From: Solobacterium sp. | GTDB taxonomy: Bacteria > Bacillota_I > Bacilli_A > Erysipelotrichales > Erysipelotrichaceae | Assembly (NCBI GenBank): GCA_017510405.1 | Contig: JAFWNG010000044.1 | Location: 1 to 34,072, forward strand | Length of the DNA: 34,072 nt | Direction of reading: 5' to 3' | Shown here: positions 2,644 to 31,621 of the stretch, piece by piece | Position numbering within the stretch: position 1 is the stretch's first letter | Layout of the letters: the number at the start of each line of letters is the position of its first letter | Position numbers and translations under genes: made by a program | Notes under the pieces: model-generated | Seen by the model: the letters and a program-made list of their open reading frames with translations, nothing else | The model's database searches: none | Told to the model about the DNA's origin: nothing

Positions 2644-4230
2644 TCAACCCTCCTTACCCTGACGTTTCGCACCGGCCATATACAGACCGAGTTCCTGAAT
2701 ATCTGTCTTCTTCGGATCAAGTTCGCCGACGATCTCGCCTTCGTACATGACGAGGATGCGGTCGGACAGGTTCATGACTTCATCCAGTTCCAGAGAGATC
2801 AGAAGAACTGCTCTTCCTTCGTCACGCTTGGCAACGATCTCTTTGTGGATGAATTCGATCGCGCCGACATCAAGACCGCGGGTCGGCTGTACGGCGATCA
2901 GAATGTTGTGCTTGCGGTCGATCTCACGGGCAATGATCGCTTTCTGCTGGTTTCCGCCGGACATGGAGCGTGCGCGCGTGATGGCGCCCTGGCCGCTTCG
3001 CACATCGAACTCATCGATCAGTTTTTCACTGTAGGTACGGATATCGTTGAACTTGATGAAGCCGTTCTGCTGGAACTCCGGTTCGAAGTATCTCTGCAGG
3101 ACCATGTTCTCTTCCAGGGAATAATCCAGGACAAGACCGTGTTTGTGCCGGTCTTCCGGAATATGGCTTAAGCCGTGCGTATTCTTGAAGCGGATGGACT
3201 TGTGGGTGATATCTTCCATCTTGCCGTCGATCAGAAGTTCGACTTTTCCGGAAGAGATCGGTTCGAGGCCTGTCAGACCGAATACGAATTCACTCTGACC
3301 GTTTCCGTCGATACCGGCGATACAGACGATCTCACCGGCTCTGACATCCAGGGATACGTTGTGGACTGCATCCTTTTTATGGATGTGATCATAGACGCAC
3401 ATATCATGGATGGATAAAACTGTCTCGCCCGGTTTTGCCGGTTCCTTGTCGACAACGAATTTGACATCACGGCCGACCATCATGTTGGAGAGTTCTTCCT
3501 TGGTGGTGTCCTTGATATTAACTGTGCCGATGTACTTGCCCTTGCGAAGTACGGAGCAGCGGTCAGCCACTTCCATGATCTCATTCAGCTTATGGGAGAT
3601 GAACAGAATGGATTTTCCCTCTGCCGCAAGTCCCTTCATGATCGACATGAGTTCTTCGATCTCCTGCGGCGTCAGAACAGCGGTCGGTTCGTCAAAGATC
3701 AGGATCTCGTTGTCGCGGTACAGCATCTTCAGGATCTCAGTACGCTGCTGCATACCGACGGTGATATTCTCAACGAGCGCATCCGGGTCGATATTGAGAC
3801 CGTAGTTTTCCGACAGCTTCATGACCTTCTTCTTTGCTTCCCCGAGCGACAGGAAACCGTTTTTCGTCGTTTCCACACCCAGAATAATATTCTCAAGAAC
3901 TGTAAATACTTCTACAAGTTTGAAATGCTGGTGGACCATTCCGATTCCGAGAGCATTTGCGTCATTCGGGTCATTGATCTGAACGACCTTTCCGTTCTTG
4001 AGAATTTCTCCTTCTTCAGGCTGATACAGTCCGAAGAGGATGCTCATCAGCGTCGATTTGCCGGCGCCGTTTTCACCCAGCAAGGCATGGATCTCACCTT
4101 TGCGGAGCTGCAGGTTGATGTGATCGTTGGCAATGATACCCGGGAAGACTTTTGTGATATTGCGAAGTTCAATAATGTATTCGCTGTTTCCCGTGTTTTC
4201 ATTCACGGTCTTTGCTTCTAAATTGTCCAT
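2644..4230 (-). CDS. nupO: Nucleoside ABC transporter, double ATP-binding protein NupO-like
   Basis: The protein has 528 residues with two fused ABC domains, as in RbsA/YufO-type ATPases. Domain 1 has Walker [10 protein letters not shown], a signature region VGMQQR and Walker [10 protein letters not shown]. Domain 2 has a degenerate Walker A (GIDGNGQSE, lysine replaced by glutamine), an intact MSGGNQQK signature and a degenerate Walker B region ([10 protein letters not shown]), the usual asymmetry of this family. An in-frame start 90 bases further upstream exists, but the ATG at 4230 has AAAGGAG eight bases before it and begins the conserved protein, so I use it. It energises the two downstream permeases. 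Confidence 0.92.
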
Positions 4231-4287
4231 ATGGCCTACTCCTTTCCTTCCACCTTCCTTATTTTTATAAACAATAGCACTTGTCTT

Positions 4288-4313
4288 ATAAAAATAAGGA
4301 CGTGAAGTCCTTA
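4288..4313 (-). terminator. Terminator-like hairpin inside the nucleoside transporter operon
   Basis: TAAGGAC (4295-4301) pairs with GTCCTTA (4307-4313) around a five-base loop, and minus-strand RNA continues with UUUUUAU. It lies between the lipoprotein gene and the ATPase gene, so it would be a partial terminator that lowers expression of the membrane components. The effect is inferred. Confidence 0.55.
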
Positions 4314-4320
4314 ATACCAT

Positions 4321-4346
4321 AGGAATGACGGTCTCCCGTCATTCCT
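4321..4346 (-). other. Perfect 11-bp hairpin after the lipoprotein gene
   Basis: AGGAATGACGG (4321-4331) is exactly complementary to CCGTCATTCCT (4336-4346) with a four-base loop. It follows the BMP lipoprotein stop codon by about 20 bases and has no U-run of its own on the minus strand. It fits a 3'-end stabilising or processing hairpin placed just before the weaker terminator at 4288-4313. Confidence 0.6.
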
Positions 4347-4366
4347 ACAGTTATTTGGTTTGTGAA

Positions 4367-5485
4367 TTATTCGAATTCAACAGTCACGTGAGCGATGCCC
4401 TTGAGCCAGTCGCCGTTGTTTGCGTCAGCCGGTACGTCAGCGCTCGGTGTGAGTGTGCCGTTTGCGACCTTCTCGAACAGTGCATTATAATCATCAACAC
4501 TGAACTTTGTCATGGACCATGTGTCAGTCGGTAAGCCTGTACCGTTGTCGGAAGCACCGAGGTTCTGAGCTACATCGGACAGTTCAGCATCCCACTTGCC
4601 GTCATAGATCTGACCGAGAACCTGCTCAACAGAAGCGGACAGACCCTTCATAGCAGATGTGATGACCTTGGAGGATTCACCGCTCTGGTCAACGTCGACA
4701 CCGATGATCTTTGCATCTTCATATTCAGCAGCTGCAGATAATACAGACTGGAACATGGAACCGCCGCATGCGAATACGACTTCTGTTCCGTTTGCATACC
4801 AGCCGGCGATCTGTGTCTGAAGTTCTGTGGAAGCACTGAATGTTTCACCATACTTGTAGGAATACTTGATCGTTACATCAACGCCTTCTTCTTCAGCTGC
4901 TGCAGAAGCGCCCTGAACGAAGCCGTAGCCATAACGGTTAACAGCCGGGTTGGCTCCGCCGCCGCCGCCTGTGAAACCGAGCTTTGTGTATCCTTCTTTA
5001 ACTGCCGCATAACCTGCGAAGTAGCCGGATTCCTGCTCTTTGTAAACGATTGCTGTAACGTTCTTGATGCCCATTGCCCAGCCGTCAACGAAGACGAACT
5101 TGACATCCGGGTTCTCTTTAGCGACTGCTTCGATCGCAGTAGCCTGTAAGAAACCAGGAGTAACGATGACTTCGGCACCGTTTTCGATTGCCTGCTTCAT
5201 TGCATCGATACGGTCGTTGTCTGTAGCGTCAGAGCCGTTTGCCGGCTGGTAGTACTTCATCGGGATTTTGTTTGCTTCAGCATATGCCTGAGCGCCTTCG
5301 TATGTTCCCTGGTTGAAGCCCTTGTCCATCAGCTGACCTACGTCAGTAACAACAGCGATCTTGTAACCGGAATCGCCTGCCGGTGCTGCAGAGGAACCGC
5401 TGCCAGCTGCGGAACCGCCGCCGCTGCATGCTACAAGTCCGAATGCCATCGTACCTGCGAGAAGTGTTTTAACGATTTTCTTCAT
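4367..5485 (-). CDS. bmpA: BMP-family nucleoside-binding lipoprotein
   Basis: This is the extracytoplasmic substrate-binding lipoprotein of the importer, 372 residues. A lipoprotein signal peptide covers residues 1-20 with lipobox LVAC, so Cys20 would be lipidated. A Gly/Ser/Ala-rich linker to about residue 36 follows, then the BMP periplasmic-binding fold. The start matches the family: IAVVTDVGQLMDKGFNQGTYEGA-type segment near residues 43-65, with the typical DKGFNQ motif. PnrA/BmpA and NupN relatives bind purine nucleosides. It is the first gene of the operon, with AAGGAGGG just upstream of the ATG, and its following hairpins suggest it is made in excess over the rest of the system. Confidence 0.93.
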   Translation of the reverse strand: MKKIVKTLLAGTMAFGLVACSGGGSAAGSGSSAAPAGDSGYKIAVVTDVGQLMDKGFNQGTYEGAQAYAEANKIPMKYYQPANGSDATDNDRIDAMKQAIENGAEVIVTPGFLQATAIEAVAKENPDVKFVFVDGWAMGIKNVTAIVYKEQESGYFAGYAAVKEGYTKLGFTGGGGGANPAVNRYGYGFVQGASAAAEEEGVDVTIKYSYKYGETFSASTELQTQIAGWYANGTEVVFACGGSMFQSVLSAAAEYEDAKIIGVDVDQSGESSKVITSAMKGLSASVEQVLGQIYDGKWDAELSDVAQNLGASDNGTGLPTDTWSMTKFSVDDYNALFEKVANGTLTPSADVPADANNGDWLKGIAHVTVEFE

Positions 5486-8201: not shown

Positions 8202-9509
8202 ATGAAAGTTGAATTTGTAAAACTCGGCATCAACGGGGAAGGCATCGGATATGTCGATCATAAGCCGGTCTTCTGCCCCGGCGTACTGCCCGGCGAGACT
8301 GCAGAAGTCCGCATTACGGAGCGCCGCCCCTCCTACTATAAGGCGGAATGTGAAAAGATACTGAAACAGGCGAAGTCCAGGCGCAAAAGTTCCTGCGGCG
8401 TACAGCAGTACTGCGGCGGCTGCGCACTCATGCACATGGACTACCACGAACAGCTGGTATGGAAAAAGCGTCTGCTCGAAGAAGCGCTGTTCAAATACGG
8501 CAACGTCAAGCGCACACTGATCCGCGACATCCATCCGTCTCCGGACTGGCTCGGTTACCGGAACCAGTGCAAGATCCCGCTCGGCACCTCCGACGGAAAA
8601 CTGGTGGGAGGCATGTATCAGCCCGGTTCCAACCGCTTCCAGACGGTCCATGACTGCCGGATCCACGATCCGCTGGTCGAGGAAACGAAAAAGCGTGTAC
8701 TGGATGTGCTCAACGAACACGGCTGCACCGCCTATGACCGCAGTAAGGAGACCGGCATGCGCTTCCTGGTCATCCGCTCCGTCGACGGAAAGTCACAGGT
8801 CACGCTTGTGACCGGACGTGACCGCCTGAGCGATTCGCTCGTACAGGATCTTACCCGGATCCCGTCGGTCGTATCGGTCATGCAGTCGGTCAATACCGAC
8901 CGCAGCGCCCTCGGCATCTTCGGCACGGCGTGCAGATGCCTGGCCGGCGAACCGGTGCTTGCGTTTGAACAGAGCGGTCTGTCGCTCACCCTTTCACCGG
9001 AAGCGTTCTTCCAGCTCAACCGCAGAGCCGCAATGGAGCTCTACGCCATGGCCGTCAGTAAGATCGATAAGTGCGATACGCTGGTGGAGGCCTACGCCGG
9101 GATCGGTCTGATGTCCATGATGGCAAAAGACAAGGCAAAGCAGATCTGGGGAATCGAATCTGTCCCCTCCGCGGTCACCGACGCGAAAAGGATCGCCGAA
9201 GCAAACGGCATCACAAATATCCGCTGGCTGTCCATGGACGCCGCCGACGGTCTGAAGCGCATCTCTCTGAACGAGACGATCGACGCACTCCTGGTCGATC
9301 CGCCGCGCTCCGGCATGGACGACGCAATGCTGGAAGCCATCGCCTCAATACAGCCGAAGAAGATTATCTACATCTCCTGCAACCCGGCGACTCTCGGAAA
9401 GAATCTGAAAGAACTGAAGCATCATTACCAGGTGCGCACTGTGATCCCGTATGACCTCTTCCCCATGACGCCGCATGTGGAAAGCATTACCGTTCTCGAA
9501 CGCGGATAA
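8202..9509 (+). CDS. rlmD: 23S rRNA (uracil-C5)-methyltransferase RlmD/RlmCD family
   Basis: The 435-residue S-adenosylmethionine-dependent RNA methyltransferase has a short N-terminal TRAM domain (residues 1-55), then a [4Fe-4S] cysteine set (CGVQQYCGGC at about 67-76 plus the Cys of VHDCRIHD near 150). The C-terminal Rossmann methyltransferase domain shows YAGIGLMSMM (SAM site), LLVDPPRSGM and the catalytic cysteine in YISCNPATL. In Gram-positive bacteria one such enzyme can make both m5U747 and m5U1939, so RlmCD is possible. It begins six bases after the DHHW stop, so it shares that transcript, but a functional link with acylation is unlikely. Confidence 0.92.
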   Translation: MKVEFVKLGINGEGIGYVDHKPVFCPGVLPGETAEVRITERRPSYYKAECEKILKQAKSRRKSSCGVQQYCGGCALMHMDYHEQLVWKKRLLEEALFKYGNVKRTLIRDIHPSPDWLGYRNQCKIPLGTSDGKLVGGMYQPGSNRFQTVHDCRIHDPLVEETKKRVLDVLNEHGCTAYDRSKETGMRFLVIRSVDGKSQVTLVTGRDRLSDSLVQDLTRIPSVVSVMQSVNTDRSALGIFGTACRCLAGEPVLAFEQSGLSLTLSPEAFFQLNRRAAMELYAMAVSKIDKCDTLVEAYAGIGLMSMMAKDKAKQIWGIESVPSAVTDAKRIAEANGITNIRWLSMDAADGLKRISLNETIDALLVDPPRSGMDDAMLEAIASIQPKKIIYISCNPATLGKNLKELKHHYQVRTVIPYDLFPMTPHVESITVLERG

Positions 9510-9559
9510 GAACATTTTCGCAGCACAGAGCGGTCATCCAAAAAAAATGTAAAAAAGTA

Positions 9560-9587
9560 TTGCATTTTCAGAAAATAGTGATATAGT
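9560..9587 (+). promoter_or_regulatory. Promoter of the structured RNA
   Basis: TTGCAT (9560-9565) and TATAGT (9582-9587) are spaced by 16 bases, predicting transcription from about 9594-9596. It lies after the rlmD stop, and the only thing downstream on the same strand is the RNA at 9596-9856. Confidence 0.6.
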
Positions 9588-9595
9588 ACTTTCTT

Positions 9596-9856
9596 GTACA
9601 GTGATACGTACAAGTCATAACGGTACAGCGGGTCCGACTCCCGCAATGACACTGGGCGAAAGCCCGATTCGCGATATGGTATACGTAAACGCCCGGATGG
9701 ATGATTCGATCCGGAGATAAACAGGCAGGATTTGCAATAAGGACGGCAAGAATCGTCTCAGCAGAATACTGTGTCCGGGGAAACGGTCCGGATTGCGGCC
9801 GGCGGTATACAGGCGAACAAAATCAGGAAGAGCATCTCACCGCTCTTCCTTTTTTT
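9596..9856 (+). ncRNA. Free-standing structured non-coding RNA, possibly raiA-motif RNA
   Basis: A stretch of about 260 bases has its own promoter and a strong terminator and no credible reading frame. Visible helices include GUCAU (9614-9618)/AUGAC (9646-9650), which encloses a hairpin GCGGG-UCCGACU-CCCGC (9628-9644) whose seven-base loop resembles a tRNA T-loop. Others are GGGC-GAAA-GCCC (9654-9665), CCGGAU/AUCCGG (9693-9714) and GACG/CGUC (9742-9757). Two copies of the self-complementary GUAUAC (9679-9684 and 9805-9810) could close a long-range helix. Size, compact multi-helix fold and Bacillota setting fit the raiA motif, whose cellular role is unknown. I assign that name from memory and cannot confirm it. 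It is not recognisably tmRNA, RNase P, SRP or 6S RNA. Confidence 0.6.
9825..9856 (+). terminator. Terminator of the structured RNA
   Basis: AGGAAGAGC (9825-9833) pairs perfectly with GCTCTTCCT (9842-9850) around an eight-base loop and runs into seven T (9850-9856). Confidence 0.9.
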
Positions 9857-9864
9857 CGTTCTGT

Positions 9865-9899
9865 AAAAAACCTATCAGAGGCAGCTGCTCTGACAGGTT
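9865..9899 (-). terminator. Terminator of the flavin reductase gene
   Basis: A 12-bp stem (9869-9880 with 9888-9899, one G-U pair) with a seven-base loop is followed on the minus strand by six U (complement of 9865-9870). It faces the terminator of the structured RNA, so the two units are well insulated. Confidence 0.85.
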
Positions 9900-9925
9900 A
9901 TCTGTTGCCGTGACCGACGAAACGA

Positions 9926-10501
9926 TCACTGCTTTTTCATGAGATCTTTGCCGGCGTTCCATGCCTGGCCGACTTTCTCTCCCGCTGTGTAGTACCCGCT
10001 GCGGAACTGGTCAAACATCAGGGCATGCAGTCTGGCGGGATCGACTTTCCCTCTCTCGTCAAGAACGCTTTCCTCCGCCTTCACATTGACGATCCGCCCG
10101 ACGATGCCGGATACATATTCATCCTTCAGATGCTCAAGCAGCTCGCATTCCATAACGACCGGGAATTCCTCGATCACCGGGGCGTTGACCATGTCGCTCT
10201 TCACGGCATGATAGCCGGTACGCTCGAATTTATCATCGATCCGGTTTCCGGAAGCGATGCCGAAGAAGTCTGCCGCGTCCATATGCGCTTCGTCTGCCAG
10301 CGCTACAGTGAACGCCTTGGAAGCGAGGATATTGAGCCATGTCTTCTTTCCTTCGCCGATAAAGAGAATGATCTTGTCATCATCACAGATCTGTCCCCAG
10401 GCAACATTCATGACATTCACTTTTTCATTTTCATCATATGCCGCCACCATGAGCACCGGCATCGGATATACTGCCGCAACTACACCGATATTCTTTTTCA
10501 T
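9926..10501 (-). CDS. Flavin reductase-like, FMN-binding split-barrel protein
   Basis: The 191-residue cytoplasmic protein belongs to the flavin reductase/flavoredoxin family. The N-terminus MKKNIGVVAAVYPMPVLMVAAYDENEK-like segment, then the MNVAWGQICDDDKI region and the SKAFTVALAD segment near residue 65, are the typical FMN-phosphate-binding split-barrel elements. Relatives in anaerobes pass electrons between NAD(P)H or ferredoxin and flavins. A GGAAAGGAAAT ribosome binding site precedes the ATG. It is transcribed divergently from an HxlR regulator, a common arrangement for redox-responsive flavoproteins. A second member of the family lies at 19964-20521. Confidence 0.88.
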   Translation of the reverse strand: MKKNIGVVAAVYPMPVLMVAAYDENEKVNVMNVAWGQICDDDKIILFIGEGKKTWLNILASKAFTVALADEAHMDAADFFGIASGNRIDDKFERTGYHAVKSDMVNAPVIEEFPVVMECELLEHLKDEYVSGIVGRIVNVKAEESVLDERGKVDPARLHALMFDQFRSGYYTAGEKVGQAWNAGKDLMKKQ

Positions 10502-10947: not shown

Positions 10948-10971
10948 AAAAAGACCGGATCTCTCCGGTCT
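10948..10971 (-). terminator. Terminator after the glutaredoxin-like gene
   Basis: AGACCGG (10952-10958) / CCGGTCT (10965-10971) with a six-base loop is followed on the minus strand by UUUUU. It abuts the stop codon of the minus-strand gene and ends the convergent pair. Confidence 0.75.
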
Positions 10972-11276
10972 CAGCACCCTGTTCCGTCGAGACGGCAAGC
11001 CGTCCCCGCAGCCGGTGTCCTGTGTTCTTCTTTAAACTGGGATTCGTAATCCAGCGTGATCGTTCCGTCTTCCAGGATCAGCGTGGGAATACCGACGCCG
11101 CCTGCTTCTTTTACGGAATCATATAAAGCATTCGTATCGCGCAGTTTCAGGAATTCCTTAAGATTTGCCATGGAACCGGTGATATCGATGAATTCGTAGG
11201 CAGTGCCTTCGGCGTCGAAGCCTTCTTTGCATGCCACGCAGTCCGGACAGAGCGGACTTCCGTATACTTTGATCAT
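10971..11276 (-). CDS. Glutaredoxin-like thiol redox protein
   Basis: The 101-residue protein starts MIKVYGSPLCPDCVACKE: a beta strand and then a CPDC redox-active motif at residues 10-13, with an extra Cys at 16. The cis-proline segment GVGIPTLILEDG lies near residues 61-72, as in glutaredoxin and thioredoxin folds. The last 17 residues (ending CRLDGTGC) add two more cysteines and go beyond the fold. It probably reduces or shuttles disulphides in the cytoplasm; the partner is unknown. It starts 13 bases after the PurF-like gene, so the two are co-transcribed. A link to that enzyme's cysteines is only a guess. Confidence 0.8.
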   Translation of the reverse strand: MIKVYGSPLCPDCVACKEGFDAEGTAYEFIDITGSMANLKEFLKLRDTNALYDSVKEAGGVGIPTLILEDGTITLDYESQFKEEHRTPAAGTACRLDGTGC

Positions 11277-11289
11277 ATTTGTATACTCC

Positions 11290-12705
11290 TTATTCTTTGC
11301 CGGTCCAGCAGTAGGTGCAGAGATGATCCACCGGATGGCCGGTCGCTTTTACCATGTCATCGAGACGGGTGAAGCTGAGTGTCGTAAAGTTCATCTTCTG
11401 ACGCATATTTTCGAGCATTGCGGCATACCGCTGGGAATCGGGATTCGCGTAGTCATCCAGAATGACGCGGTCGACGTTCTCACCCTCTTCTTCGGCGATA
11501 ATGCGGCGGGCGATCAGTTCCATGTCCGAAGTCGCACGGGAGAAGTTGATGAACTTACAGCCAAACATGATCGGCGGACATGCCGGACGCACATGGACTT
11601 CCTTCGCACCGGATTCGTACAGGAACTCGGTGGTCTCACGCAGCTGTGTGCCGCGGACGATGGAGTCGTCGATCAGCAGCAGTTTCTTGCCGTCGATCAG
11701 TTCATTGACCGGGATCAGCTTCATCTTCGCGATCAGGTCACGCTTGGACTGCATGGTCGGCATGAAGGAACGCGGCCAGGTCGGCGTGTATTTGATAAAC
11801 GGACGGGAGAACGGAATACCGGATTCGTTGGAATAACCGATCGCATGGGCGATACCGGAATCCGGTACGCCGGCAACGGTATCCACGTCATCACGCGTCA
11901 GTCCGTCGCGCTCAGCCATGTACTGTCCGCATTTGTAGCGCATATCTTCCACCGTCGTGCCTTCATAGTGGCTCGGCGGATATCCGTAATAGGTCCAGAG
12001 GAAGGTGCAGATCCTCAGGTGCTTGCCCGGAGAAGCGAGCTGCTGCACGCCGTCCGGTGTCATGACAATGATCTCGCCCGGACCAAGTTCCATATAATCC
12101 TGGTAGCCGAGCTTCAGGTACGCAAAGGATTCAAACGAGGCGCAGAAGCCTTCCGGCTTTCGGCCGATCAGGATCGGGGTGCGGCCGACGCGGTCACGGG
12201 CACAGTAGATCCCTTTCGCCGTCAGCAGCATGATCGACATGGATCCTTCGATCATCCGCTGCGCATACTGGATGCCTTCCACCAGATGATCTCTCTGGTT
12301 GATCAGAGCCGCCACCAGTTCCGTCTTATTGATCTCACCGCCGCTCATTTCCAGGAAGTGCGTCTGTTTGCGGTCAAACAGTTCATTCAGGATCCGGTCG
12401 GTGTTGTTGATCTTTCCGATCGTTGCGATTGCGTAGGTACCGTGATGGGAGCGCACGAGAAGCGGCTGCGGATCATAGTCTGAGATACATCCGATTCCCA
12501 TATTTCCTTCCATCTCTGTGACTTCCATCGAAAACTTGGTCCGGAACGGTGAGTTCTCGATGTTGTGGATCGCCCGGTTGAAACCGTCTTTGCCGAATAC
12601 GGCAAGTCCGGCACGGCGCGTTCCGAGATGGGAATGGTAGTCTGTTCCGTAGAACAGGTCGAAGACACAGTCTTCCTTCAATGCTGCGCTGAAGAAGCCA
12701 CCCAT
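11290..12705 (-). CDS. purF: Amidophosphoribosyltransferase (PurF) homologue lacking the glutaminase cysteine
   Basis: The 471-residue protein has PurF architecture: an Ntn-glutaminase-like domain (about 1-235) and a phosphoribosyltransferase domain (about 255-471). The PRPP-binding loop is intact (LLIDDSIVRGTQ, residues 343-354), as is GVPDSGIAHAIGY near 279-291. The N-terminus, however, is MGGFFSA and not the usual Cys-Gly-Ile/Val exposed after processing, and the glutamine-site AHNGN block reads ATIGK (94-98). The glutaminase therefore looks dead. Canonical PurF makes phosphoribosylamine from PRPP and glutamine; this one could use ammonia or act on another substrate. Cysteines at 463 and 466 recall the iron-sulphur ligands of Bacillus-type PurF. 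GAGGAGG precedes the ATG, and no upstream Cys-containing start is available. Confidence 0.85.
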   Translation of the reverse strand: MGGFFSAALKEDCVFDLFYGTDYHSHLGTRRAGLAVFGKDGFNRAIHNIENSPFRTKFSMEVTEMEGNMGIGCISDYDPQPLLVRSHHGTYAIATIGKINNTDRILNELFDRKQTHFLEMSGGEINKTELVAALINQRDHLVEGIQYAQRMIEGSMSIMLLTAKGIYCARDRVGRTPILIGRKPEGFCASFESFAYLKLGYQDYMELGPGEIIVMTPDGVQQLASPGKHLRICTFLWTYYGYPPSHYEGTTVEDMRYKCGQYMAERDGLTRDDVDTVAGVPDSGIAHAIGYSNESGIPFSRPFIKYTPTWPRSFMPTMQSKRDLIAKMKLIPVNELIDGKKLLLIDDSIVRGTQLRETTEFLYESGAKEVHVRPACPPIMFGCKFINFSRATSDMELIARRIIAEEEGENVDRVILDDYANPDSQRYAAMLENMRQKMNFTTLSFTRLDDMVKATGHPVDHLCTYCWTGKE

Positions 12706-27240: not shown

Positions 27241-28614
27241 CTAGAGACCGTAGGATTTCATCAGAGCTTTGAACTCAGCACTGTCCGCAAACCCGCTGAT
27301 CACAAAGTCACGGGACGCACCGTTATTCAGATAATTCACCCAGAATGCCTTCCCGGCAGGATCCGGTTCACGATCCATGAACGTCCGGTAAAGGATCGTC
27401 ACAAAGTCGCTGTTGTTCAGTTTCCTGCTGTAGAATTCCTGGCTGTGGAAGAAACTCATTGCGGCTTCCTTCGGCGTCATTTTCCCGGTCAGGATCTGCT
27501 GACACCAGAAATTCAGGCCTGCCACATCAAACCCTCTGCCCAGTGCCCTGGTGTACAGGCGGGCAATGAATGCGGTCAGCCCCGGCTTCTGATCACGCGG
27601 TTCGGTCAGTTTGATCGTTCCCGGATCGATACCGTATTTCTTGCACAGATCTTTAAACTCCTGACTTGCCAGGAACATCTTCAGGATATAGTTGCGGGAC
27701 ACGCCCGTTGCCAGCAGATCCGTCCACGTCTTTTTCCCTGCTGCATCCGACGGACGGTCCATGATGGCGTTGTAGCAGAGCTCCACGAAATCGGCGTCCG
27801 AATAACTGATCTTGTTGAATTCGCTGCTGTTGAAGATGCCGTAGACGATATCTGCAGCTTTGGATGTCCGGTTCCGCAGACTTGTGGACCAGCCGGAATA
27901 TCCGGTCGGATCCGGTTCACGGCCGAGACACAGGATGTAGAGACGGCGGACAAAGGCTTCTACTTTATCATCGGTCTTGACTTTGAAAATAATCTTGATG
28001 CCTTCATCCGGCACCGTGTTCTTCGTATAGGATGCATCATAGCCGTTGATCGACACTTTCAGCGTTTCATTATAATAATTCAGGCCGTACATCTCATTCG
28101 GATAGATGTTTATTTCCGCCCAGTAGGTCTGGTTTTCCGCAAACTTTCCTGTATACGGCACCGTCGCGTCATACGTCTTCAGCCAGCGCATCGTATAGAT
28201 CCAGTACTTCGGATTCTGATCCATAATGGCAATATCCGGATACACAGCAGTCTGTCCGGCCAGCGGCCAGGTCAGCTTGAGGTTGATCGAATTGATCGCA
28301 TACGAATATGTAATATAAAGCGTTTTATTCTCAAATACCGACTCGTTGGGATCATATGGCGTATAAGACGTATTTTTGTAGAATGTCGGCATGCGGCCGC
28401 TGTCGTACTGGTTGATTTCCTCCAGATACTGCGGATACTGGTGGAACGTTTCCAGCAGACTGTCTCCCTGATAGACCTGGAAAGCCGTGATCTGGTATCC
28501 GCTCATATCCTTGATATAAACAGAGTAATAATGGGCGGCGCGCACTTTGAGCGGATTCAGAAATCCGGCAGCGAAAACCATGAGCGCAAGCAGACTTTTG
28601 AGAATTTTCTTCAT
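27241..28614 (-). CDS. Secreted DUF4214-domain protein, copy 3 of the array
   Basis: The 457-residue exported protein has a signal peptide at residues 1-26 (cleavage after VRA). An N-terminal beta-rich region (27-210) resembles Listeria-Bacteroides-type repeats. Two DUF4214 units follow (about 215-335 and 345-457). Each unit has the recognisable order VRRLYxxxLGREPDxxG..W, then FxxSxEF and a terminal FxxLxxxYG. LTEPRDQKPGLTAFIARLY links the units. The function of DUF4214 is unknown; it is common in secreted and cell-surface proteins. There is no anchor, so it is probably released. AAGGAGGG precedes the ATG. This is the most diverged of the three copies in its C-terminal half. Confidence 0.85.
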   Translation of the reverse strand: MKKILKSLLALMVFAAGFLNPLKVRAAHYYSVYIKDMSGYQITAFQVYQGDSLLETFHQYPQYLEEINQYDSGRMPTFYKNTSYTPYDPNESVFENKTLYITYSYAINSINLKLTWPLAGQTAVYPDIAIMDQNPKYWIYTMRWLKTYDATVPYTGKFAENQTYWAEINIYPNEMYGLNYYNETLKVSINGYDASYTKNTVPDEGIKIIFKVKTDDKVEAFVRRLYILCLGREPDPTGYSGWSTSLRNRTSKAADIVYGIFNSSEFNKISYSDADFVELCYNAIMDRPSDAAGKKTWTDLLATGVSRNYILKMFLASQEFKDLCKKYGIDPGTIKLTEPRDQKPGLTAFIARLYTRALGRGFDVAGLNFWCQQILTGKMTPKEAAMSFFHSQEFYSRKLNNSDFVTILYRTFMDREPDPAGKAFWVNYLNNGASRDFVISGFADSAEFKALMKSYGL

Positions 28615-28653
28615 GTGACCCTCCTTCTCATTGTCGTTTTTGTTTACCGTGTA

Positions 28654-30057
28654 TTATTTGATCCCATAGGATGCCATCAGTTTCGTGAACTCCGGACTGT
28701 AGGCAAAGCCATACAGTACCTGATCACGGCTCATTCCGTTCTGCATATGTTTGAGCCAGTCCGCAAATCCCTCCTGATCCGGTTCCCGGTTCAGGAATGT
28801 CCGGTACAGACGCTTCAGGTATTCCGAATTGGAATAATTGTGATTCTTGAATTCCGCACTGTGGAAGAACCCGTCGGACGCGGTTTTGATCGCTTCTGCC
28901 TTTTTGCTGGAAGCCGCAAGGATCTTTTTGCACCAGGTGTTCAGCCCCGGAACATCAAACGACCTGCCCAGTGCCTTCTTATAACAGCGGGCGACGAAGC
29001 TTGTTATTCCGTAGTTCTGATCACGCGGTTCCGTCAGTGTGATCGTTCCCTGCGCGATCCCGTATTTGGCGCACAGAGCTTTGAATTCATTACTGCCGAC
29101 AAATCCGCGCAAGACGAAGTTGCGGGAAACGCCGTTGTCGAGCGCGTCCAGCCAGTCATTCAGTCCCGGCAGATCGTATGCCCGGTTCATAAGCACTTCG
29201 TAGCAGGTCTCAACGAAATCCCGTTCCGAGAAACCGTTGTTCAGGAACTCACTGCTGTTGAAGAAGCCGTATACCGTCTGCGCAGCTGTAATGGTTTTGT
29301 TTTTCAGTTTTCCGCTCCAGGACTGAAAACCGGCAGGTTCCGGTTCCCGGAAAAGACACATATTGTACAGTCTGCGAACAAATGCCTGTACCGGATCATC
29401 TATTTTCACCGCATAGACAATACGGATGCCGTTCGAAGGAAATGGTTCTGCCGTGTACGAGGCCTGCCCGCCGTTGATATATGCTTTGAGCGTATTCCCG
29501 AACGTATAGAACCCGTACTGTTCCACCGGGTATAGATACGCTTCGAGATAATACGTCGCCCCCTGCTGGAATACTCCCGTATACGGCACTTTTGCGTCTG
29601 CCGTCTTCAGCCACCTGTAAGAGGAAGGATAATAGGCCGCATGATGCTCGGACGGATACAGGCCCGGGTTGCCGGCACTCTGCCCCGCTTTCGGCCAGAT
29701 CAGCCGCAGATTGATATCATTTATTGACCATACCGTACTGACGTACAGGATCAGGTCTTTTGTTACAGCAGAATTGGGATCATAGCGTACGGTACATGCC
29801 GCATTGGAATACAGAAGCGGGATACGCGATGTATCACCCCATGTCATATTTGCGTATTCCGACGGGTGCGCCTGGAGATACTTTTCCAGGCTGGACCCCT
29901 TTTCGATCGAATACGAGGTCACCTCTACGTCATTGGTATCCAGGATATGCAGGGTGTACTTCGTCTCCGCATGAATTCCGGACATCTGCAGCAGAAGGCA
30001 GATGACCGCCAGGATCACAGCGGCGGACCTGGCGATTCGTTCCGCTCTTTTCTTCAT
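28654..30057 (-). CDS. Secreted DUF4214-domain protein, copy 2 of the array
   Basis: The 467-residue protein has the same plan as its neighbours: signal peptide (1-31, cleavage near IHA), a beta-rich N-terminal region with VPYTGVFQQGATYYLE near 165, and two DUF4214 units (about 220-340 and 350-467). Its C-terminal unit is nearly the same at DNA level as that of the next upstream copy, with shared stretches such as NREPD and FFHSAEFKNHNYSN. This points to recent duplication or gene conversion. The ribosome binding site is weak (AAGAAG), and the gene starts 24 bases after the copy upstream, so it depends on that transcript. Confidence 0.85.
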   Translation of the reverse strand: MKKRAERIARSAAVILAVICLLLQMSGIHAETKYTLHILDTNDVEVTSYSIEKGSSLEKYLQAHPSEYANMTWGDTSRIPLLYSNAACTVRYDPNSAVTKDLILYVSTVWSINDINLRLIWPKAGQSAGNPGLYPSEHHAAYYPSSYRWLKTADAKVPYTGVFQQGATYYLEAYLYPVEQYGFYTFGNTLKAYINGGQASYTAEPFPSNGIRIVYAVKIDDPVQAFVRRLYNMCLFREPEPAGFQSWSGKLKNKTITAAQTVYGFFNSSEFLNNGFSERDFVETCYEVLMNRAYDLPGLNDWLDALDNGVSRNFVLRGFVGSNEFKALCAKYGIAQGTITLTEPRDQNYGITSFVARCYKKALGRSFDVPGLNTWCKKILAASSKKAEAIKTASDGFFHSAEFKNHNYSNSEYLKRLYRTFLNREPDQEGFADWLKHMQNGMSRDQVLYGFAYSPEFTKLMASYGIK

Positions 30058-30081
30058 ATACTTCTTATTCTGGACGTACTG

Positions 30082-31488
30082 TTACAGTCCGTACTTCGCC
30101 ATGATCTTGGCAAACTCAGTGCTGTACGCAAAGCCGTACAGAACCTGATCGCGGCTCATTCCGTTCTTCAAATAATTGAGCCAGTCGTTGAATCCCTCCG
30201 GATCCGGCTCCCGGTTCAGGAATGTCCGGTACAGACGCTTCAGGTATTCTTCGTTGGAATAATTGTGATTCTTGAACTCCGCACTGTGGAAGAATCCGTC
30301 GGATGCAGTTTTGATCGCCTCCTCCTTTTTATTGGAAGCTGCCAGGATCGTTTTGCACCAGCTGTTCAGGCCTGGAACATCAAACGATCTGTCCAGTGCT
30401 TTTGTATAACAGCGGGCCACGAAACTGGTTATTCCGTAGTTCTGATCGCGCGGTTCCGTCAGTTTGATGGTACCCGGTACGATGCCGAACTTATTGCACA
30501 GGTCAATGTACTCCTTACTGCCGACGAATCCCGCCAGAACGTAATTCCGCGAAACACCGTTTGCCAGATACTCCAGCCAGAGTTTTTTGCCCGGCGCATC
30601 AGCGGCACGGTCAAACAGCGCTTTATAGCACTTATCAAGGAACGGGCCGTCTTTGTAATTATGAGCGAGGAATTCCGGACTGTTGAAGAACCCGTGGACC
30701 AGCGTAGTAGCCGGCTCCTGCGATATTTTCAGCATTCCGTACCAGAAGTTAAAGCCCATGCTGTCTGGGTTTCTGTCGAGACATTCCTCATACATTCTGC
30801 GGATAAACGCCTGTACATTATTGTCCAGGCTGATCGGATACTTGATATTGACGCCAAGACCAAAGTTCATATCGTAGTATACTTCTGCCCCGTCGATGAG
30901 CACCGTCAGTATCCGGGTAAACCCGTTCATTGCAAATCCGTTTTTCCCTCTTACAGAGACATCCAGCCAGTAAATCTTTCCTTCCTGGAACTTCCCGGTA
31001 AACGGGACCTGATCGTCCCGGTTCTCGAGGAAAGCCACGCTTGTGATCGTATAATTCGCCGGTCCAACGATACTGACATTCGGCGTAACGGTGCCGTATT
31101 CTCCTATCACCGGCGGCTTGAACGTCAGATTCACTTCATTGACCGGTTTGTATGTCTGCCGGTAAAGCGTAACGTTGCTGTTGATCTTGTCTTCCAGGAA
31201 GATCGGTGTACTGCCGGCTTTGTCCAACGTCCACACTGTCATCTTATTCTCTGTGTCTTCCAGCTCCGGATAATTGTACTGATAGTATTTGAATGCGTCT
31301 TTGAACGACGTTCCGGCCAGGATATCATTCATGTTATCCGGGAGATTAGCGATCTGTGATCCGTCTTTATTCCGGAAATGAATGTAGTAATAGGTCGGTC
31401 CGGCTTTTACTGTATTTGCATTGAACGGCAAGCACAGCAAAGCGATCATACAAGCGAGAATAAAACGAAAAAACCTTTTGAATTTCAT
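30082..31488 (-). CDS. Secreted DUF4214-domain protein, copy 1 of the array
   Basis: The 468-residue exported protein begins at the ATG at 31488, chosen because AAGGAGAG lies eight bases upstream; an in-frame start 17 codons earlier has none. The signal peptide covers about 1-28 (cleavage after VKA). The N-terminal beta-rich region includes VPFTGKFQEGKIYWLD, and two DUF4214 units follow (about 215-335 and 345-468). The first unit is distinct (DRNPDSMGFNFWYG); the second closely matches copy 2. It is first in the operon and divergent from lysS. The role may be adhesion or host interaction, but this is inference from secretion and repetition only. Confidence 0.85.
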   Translation of the reverse strand: MKFKRFFRFILACMIALLCLPFNANTVKAGPTYYYIHFRNKDGSQIANLPDNMNDILAGTSFKDAFKYYQYNYPELEDTENKMTVWTLDKAGSTPIFLEDKINSNVTLYRQTYKPVNEVNLTFKPPVIGEYGTVTPNVSIVGPANYTITSVAFLENRDDQVPFTGKFQEGKIYWLDVSVRGKNGFAMNGFTRILTVLIDGAEVYYDMNFGLGVNIKYPISLDNNVQAFIRRMYEECLDRNPDSMGFNFWYGMLKISQEPATTLVHGFFNSPEFLAHNYKDGPFLDKCYKALFDRAADAPGKKLWLEYLANGVSRNYVLAGFVGSKEYIDLCNKFGIVPGTIKLTEPRDQNYGITSFVARCYTKALDRSFDVPGLNSWCKTILAASNKKEEAIKTASDGFFHSAEFKNHNYSNEEYLKRLYRTFLNREPDPEGFNDWLNYLKNGMSRDQVLYGFAYSTEFAKIMAKYGL

Positions 31489-31621
31489 ACAAACTCTCCT
31501 TCCGATTAACAGTGATCTGCAGCACACTAAAAGAAGCAAATGCTGCTTCTGATTTGTTTAAATTTTATCAGAATTCACAATCCTTAAAAAGTTACGCATT
31601 TGCCTATATTGTCACTCCTCA

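Follow-up and report, generated by a model that had tools for sequence, protein, structure and literature searches.

A candidate RNA gene downstream of rlmD

The window (the whole 34,072-nt stretch of Solobacterium sp. DNA analysed here) forms part of a 3.27 Mb genome whose closest named relatives are Solobacterium sp. MAGs from the rumen and cattle gut. The intergenic region at 9510-9925 is bounded on one side by rlmD (8202-9509, + strand) and on the other by a Flavin_Reduct gene (9926-10501, - strand). Its + strand holds, across 9560-9857, a promoter-like block that is conserved, then a predicted RNA some 264 nt long, and finally an intrinsic terminator (Table 1). The original prediction had described a gene-free stretch of some 260 bases between rlmD and a convergent flavin reductase, flanked by a promoter and a strong terminator, and all of these were located. 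The promoter rests on a conserved block with an extended -10 element, though it is weak by consensus: the -35 hexamer is poor, and a strict sigma-70 consensus scan reported no promoter. The terminator scan returned two sites against 0.4 expected, which are one inverted repeat reported once per strand.

Beyond the flavin reductase, at 10971-12705 (- strand), a glutaredoxin-like gene adjoins an amidophosphoribosyltransferase-like gene (GATase_7 with a weak Pribosyltran match), and the sister species described below has kept both alongside the RNA locus. Three tandem paralogues of about 457-485 aa occupy 27241-31539 (- strand); they are apparently secreted and, as judged by eye, have repeat-like C-terminal stretches in common.

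Table 1 Features of the RNA locus, in positions of the window
Feature	Positions	Strand	Basis or remark
Promoter-like block: -35 TTGCAT (9560-9565), 16-nt spacer, TGA and -10 TATAGT (9582-9587; extended -10)	9560-9587	+	Sequence, conservation
Predicted transcript, about 264 nt	9594-9857	+	Deduced from promoter and terminator positions
H0 hairpin, UUGUAC/GUACAA	9594-9613	+	Fold; sister species re-forms the hairpin two bases earlier
tRNA-elbow-like module: P2 GUCAU/AUGAC (9614-9618/9646-9650), linker with conserved GG (9622-9623), T-arm	9614-9650	+	Elbow contact putative
T-arm-like hairpin, GCGGG-UCCGACU-CCCGC, C at tRNA position 55	9628-9644	+	Pattern search, comparison
H4 hairpin, GGGC-GAAA-GCCC	9654-9665	+	Loop is UGAA in sister species
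3' domain, closed by H5 UUCGC/GCGAA (9668-9672/9813-9817) and H6 GUAUAC/GUAUAC (9679-9684/9805-9810)	9668-9817	+	Fold; 94% identity
Arms of the 3' domain	H8 9693-9714; H9-H11 9725-9772; H12 9773-9793	+	H9/H10 uncertain
Intrinsic terminator, AGGAAGAGC-AUCUCACC-GCUCUUCCU and U-run	9825-9857 (stem-loop 9825-9850)	+	Terminator scan; comparison

A single homologue, in a sister species, among the genomes searched

The search for homologues covered 70 genomes from the genus, the full set of 315 available for the order, and samples of 395 genomes from the class and 392 from the phylum. The only one found in this set comes from a sheep-rumen Solobacterium MAG (G004, JAFYHC010000068.1), where the RNA is present as a single copy in the same place, after rlmD. 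The covariance-model score of this true pair is 278-281 bits, and matches of about 13-15 bits were taken as noise level. Two such matches lie inside protein-coding genes, one short-chain-dehydrogenase-like (G249/L042) and one pseudouridine-synthase-like (L032), and were discarded as noise; two others that we aligned (G263/L041 and G020/L040) score at the same level. BLAST matches at L055 (E 4e-4) and L056 (E 5e-3), with E values per genome over 395 genomes, were unsupported by the covariance model. Searches of phages, plasmids and viral contigs gave no homologue, and the single viral pattern match (L043) consists of 16 nt matching the RNA with no further similarity. The rlmD neighbourhoods of 28 congeners likewise held no relative of the RNA, and these analyses brought up no partner gene for it.

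Between the two species the 225-nt RNA body differs at 24 positions. Its core (9666-9818) is 94% identical and is the best-conserved 150-nt stretch within the 8.3 kb compared; neighbouring genes reach 82% (MBOAT), 73% (DHHW), 76% (rlmD), 78% (glutaredoxin-like) and 84% (amidotransferase-like), and the spacer immediately preceding the promoter (9510-9560) falls to 49%. Conservation runs from the -35 hexamer to the terminator. The promoter-like block is kept at 82% identity, with TTGCATTTTCAGAA identical, and the terminator stem is re-formed around a changed and shorter loop. Furthermore, the substitutions fall in loops or are mostly pair-preserving: the nine in the core break one pair of the fold predicted from the window sequence alone, against 4.2 expected at random (P=0.027). 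This comparative conservation appears to be the strongest evidence against a chance origin of the structure. That so constrained an RNA should nevertheless occur so narrowly suggests either its gain from an unsampled source or its loss elsewhere.

A predicted tRNA-elbow-like module and a separate 3' domain

The tRNA T-loop-like hairpin, the GAAA tetraloop hairpin and the long-range GUAUAC pairing had all been anticipated, and each was recovered, the first exactly at 9628-9644 and the last as part of the minimum-energy fold. The definition used for the T-arm-like hairpin is expected to be matched 0.00025 times per 225 nt, as estimated from shuffles, and the 34 kb window has no other instance, whichever strand is searched. 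The sister species differs there only at the variable position 59. P2, the GG linker and the T-arm stand in the order of a tRNA elbow, and an elbow contact between linker and loop is predicted. The base at position 55 is C rather than the U of tRNA, which counts against an elbow reading; with C in this position, Watson-Crick pairing with the loop becomes available to both G18/G19-like bases.

The loop of H0 (9600-9602) is predicted to be able to pair with 9651-9653 in a pseudoknot. One of its pairs, 9602/9651, is U-A in the window and A-U in the sister species, the sole compensatory pair change between the two sequences; alternatively, the new U in the sister species could extend P2.

Folding energy by itself is modest evidence for structure, with z = -3.05 when the terminator is included. 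Without the terminator we obtained z = -2.1 for 9594-9818 and -2.8 for the core at 9666-9818; a further value without the terminator was -1.45. Both sequences agree on H4, H5, H6, H8, H11, H12 and the T-arm (mean pair probabilities 0.68-1.0), and H7 and P2 are weaker (0.47-0.81). H9/H10 is unstable in the sister sequence, where a GCAG-NNNA-CUGU hairpin is possible instead, its loop containing the three changes found there. All 62 pairs of the shared structure hold in both species compared with 32-44% for slid controls, a difference that partly reflects how the structure was chosen. Covariation calculated from two sequences with one compensatory change is not significant, as 245 of 500 shuffles did as well. 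With this number of sequences and of compensatory changes, we regard the shared fold as supported rather than proven.

The RNA is very probably independent of its neighbours

The sister species lacks the flavin reductase and the adjoining regulator gene but retains the RNA, which is followed there by a convergent glutaredoxin-like gene. Neither species has a co-directional gene closely downstream, and the RNA is therefore not a leader, in keeping with the proposal that it is a stand-alone RNA with transcription signals of its own. Its position directly after rlmD in both species could still be read as that of a cis element, such as a relic riboswitch or attenuator, or the tail of the rlmD transcript. 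This is improbable given that the conserved promoter-like block separates rlmD from the RNA, that rlmD of the sister species has its own terminator ahead of the RNA promoter (L003:1446-1467), and that nothing closely downstream is transcribed in the same direction.

The longest open reading frame in the region starts at 9701 (9701-9913) and encodes 70 aa in the window; the corresponding frame of the sister species has no stop within the 79 aa examined. That it is open in both would be compatible with a small protein gene. However, the shared part has five amino-acid replacements and zero silent changes, the second half diverges completely, and the frame passes through the terminator. A frame that changes by replacement only and then diverges is therefore not a conserved protein, and we consider a coding function highly improbable. 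Since the RNA is conserved, its terminator is re-formed, the flavin reductase next to it has been lost and the reading frame shows this pattern, it is very probably a structured RNA with a gene of its own rather than a leader or an mRNA.

Comparison with known stand-alone RNAs

No Rfam 15 family matched at its gathering score, and relaxing the threshold to E≤10 gave only three meaningless sub-threshold matches. Two identities had been offered in the original prediction, a raiA-motif RNA or an unnamed class. When the Rfam covariance models were run, the raiA model (RF03072) did not match the window RNA at E≤10, and the reverse model comparison gave only noise. The order of helices also differs: in raiA an outer helix encloses the entire RNA, with a 5' arm and a two-armed junction inside it, and the window RNA folds as separate 5' and 3' domains. 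raiA is typically found near raiA/comFC-type genes, although this position is not obligatory; such genes are absent at the locus, where the neighbours are rlmD and the flavin reductase or glutaredoxin gene. The raiA reading accordingly fell away, and the unnamed class has survived every test made.

raiA was not found in the window genome, and the same RF03072 model detects a true raiA RNA in a congener with 185.6 bits. This is the only raiA RNA in the 70 genomes of the genus (L037:1501-1714, G026:C20). Its contig is 5 kb long, comes from a genome whose contamination is estimated at 7% and is possibly foreign, in which case the genus may lack raiA.

The original statement that the function of raiA is not known is out of date: in C. 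difficile this RNA, also named ModT, is a trans-acting factor that affects growth transition, sporulation and c-di-GMP (PMC11706538). The resemblance to the window RNA is general: both are stand-alone structured RNAs of about 200-260 nt from Bacillota, and raiA is trans-acting where tested (PMC11706538). Size, stand-alone position and the absence of raiA from nearly the whole genus would suit a very divergent raiA. This interpretation is nonetheless already contradicted by the failed match in either direction and by the helix order, and raiA occurs in some 2,500 species, the window RNA in two; we give it scarcely any weight.

The tRNA-like domain of tmRNA (RF00023) has a helix, a D-like linker and a T-arm in tRNA order, as does the window RNA. 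In contrast to tmRNA, the window RNA has no CCA end and no tag frame was found in it; neither Rfam nor ARAGORN gave a tmRNA match, and the tmRNA of this genome lies elsewhere (C40:355-711). 6S RNA (RF00013) is also stand-alone and of similar size, whereas the window RNA is not a single long bulged hairpin and has no Rfam match to 6S. A weak 6S candidate below the gathering score is found elsewhere in the genome (C43:58744-58905), and there is one such candidate in each of four congeners searched.

A proposed trans-acting RNA

Our preferred reading, to which we assign a probability of about 0.6, is that the RNA is structured, acts in trans and belongs to a class not yet described, its 5' module resembling a tRNA elbow and its 3' junction domain standing apart from it. 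Its own extended -10 promoter would give rise to an RNA of about 264 nt (9594-9857, + strand) ending at its own terminator. In the 5' module the T-arm would sit on a 5-bp helix with the GG linker where the D-loop would be, probably tied by the pseudoknot. The multi-branched 3' domain, closed by the UUCGC/GCGAA and GUAUAC/GUAUAC helices and with conserved unpaired stretches, would hold a partner or ligand, and the folded RNA would act in trans. The elbow-like module would most likely dock onto a surface, of protein or RNA, whose usual role is to read tRNA, its partner being a guess; that it contacts the tRNA-reading machinery as such we consider less likely than not. A bolder version, which we think rather unlikely, is that this is the first known member of a class in which the elbow-like module engages the tRNA-reading machinery and the junction domain senses or carries something, recently gained in one rumen Erysipelotrichaceae-type lineage.

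The main rival is an ordinary lineage-specific sRNA that base-pairs with mRNAs through its unpaired stretches (such as AGAUAAACAG and AAUAAG), its helices serving mainly for stability and termination. A spread over two sister species only is typical of base-pairing sRNAs, and a promoter and terminator of its own and conserved unpaired stretches fit as well. The constraint, however, spans the whole 153-nt core, stems included, rather than a short seed, and a multi-branched fold or a T-arm module is unusual among such sRNAs. On balance we judge base-pairing of this kind unlikely and keep to a trans-acting RNA of an undescribed class.

It is uncommon for a structured, stand-alone RNA to be missing from Rfam and to be better conserved than the protein genes around it, and distinct biochemical roles were later demonstrated for several orphan classes of this type. 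The spread over two species limits the reach of the finding unless metagenomes yield more members. Its defined borders, its independence from a downstream gene and its tRNA-like module make the RNA directly testable.

Y-type RNAs and TROVE genes in the genus

Bacterial Y RNAs of the YrlA type also use a tRNA T-arm as a module, and the T-arm in the window RNA could be accounted for if this were a Y-type RNA that is bound by Ro/TROVE and links that protein to RNA quality control. The genome does encode a TROVE protein with two Y-like RNAs, and the T-loop UCCGACU is common to the window RNA and the second of these. Against this, the T-arm is the only part that aligns between the window RNA and the two Y-like RNAs. 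The permuted tRNA order of Y RNAs (T-arm, acceptor hairpin, D-arm) and the Ro-binding terminal stem are absent from the window RNA: its T-arm is not immediately followed by an acceptor hairpin, it shows no clear D-arm, and it has no TROVE neighbour, the TROVE gene of this genome being on another contig. Moreover, TROVE was not found in the RNA-bearing sister genome (85% complete) and is present in two congeners that lack the RNA (G067 and G089). A Y-type identity is thus very unlikely.

The TROVE locus of the window genome lies on contig C2 (about 129159-131278; L064:3160-3560 and 3618-5279), where the TROVE (Ro-like) gene is directly preceded by a tandem pair of Y-type RNAs, each about 135 nt long. 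They comprise a Ro-like stem, a hairpin, a T-arm, an acceptor-like hairpin and a D-arm-like hairpin, that is, the permuted tRNA order. The first has a fold z of -3.9, and neither has an Rfam match at the gathering score. In the congener G089 (L065:1347-4399), tRNA-like genes identified by ARAGORN (Leu, Lys and Arg) alternate with other T-arm-bearing RNAs upstream of a clear Ro60-type gene. An RtcB-like gene, recognised by eye, follows downstream, and the locus has the appearance of an RNA-repair/Ro island.
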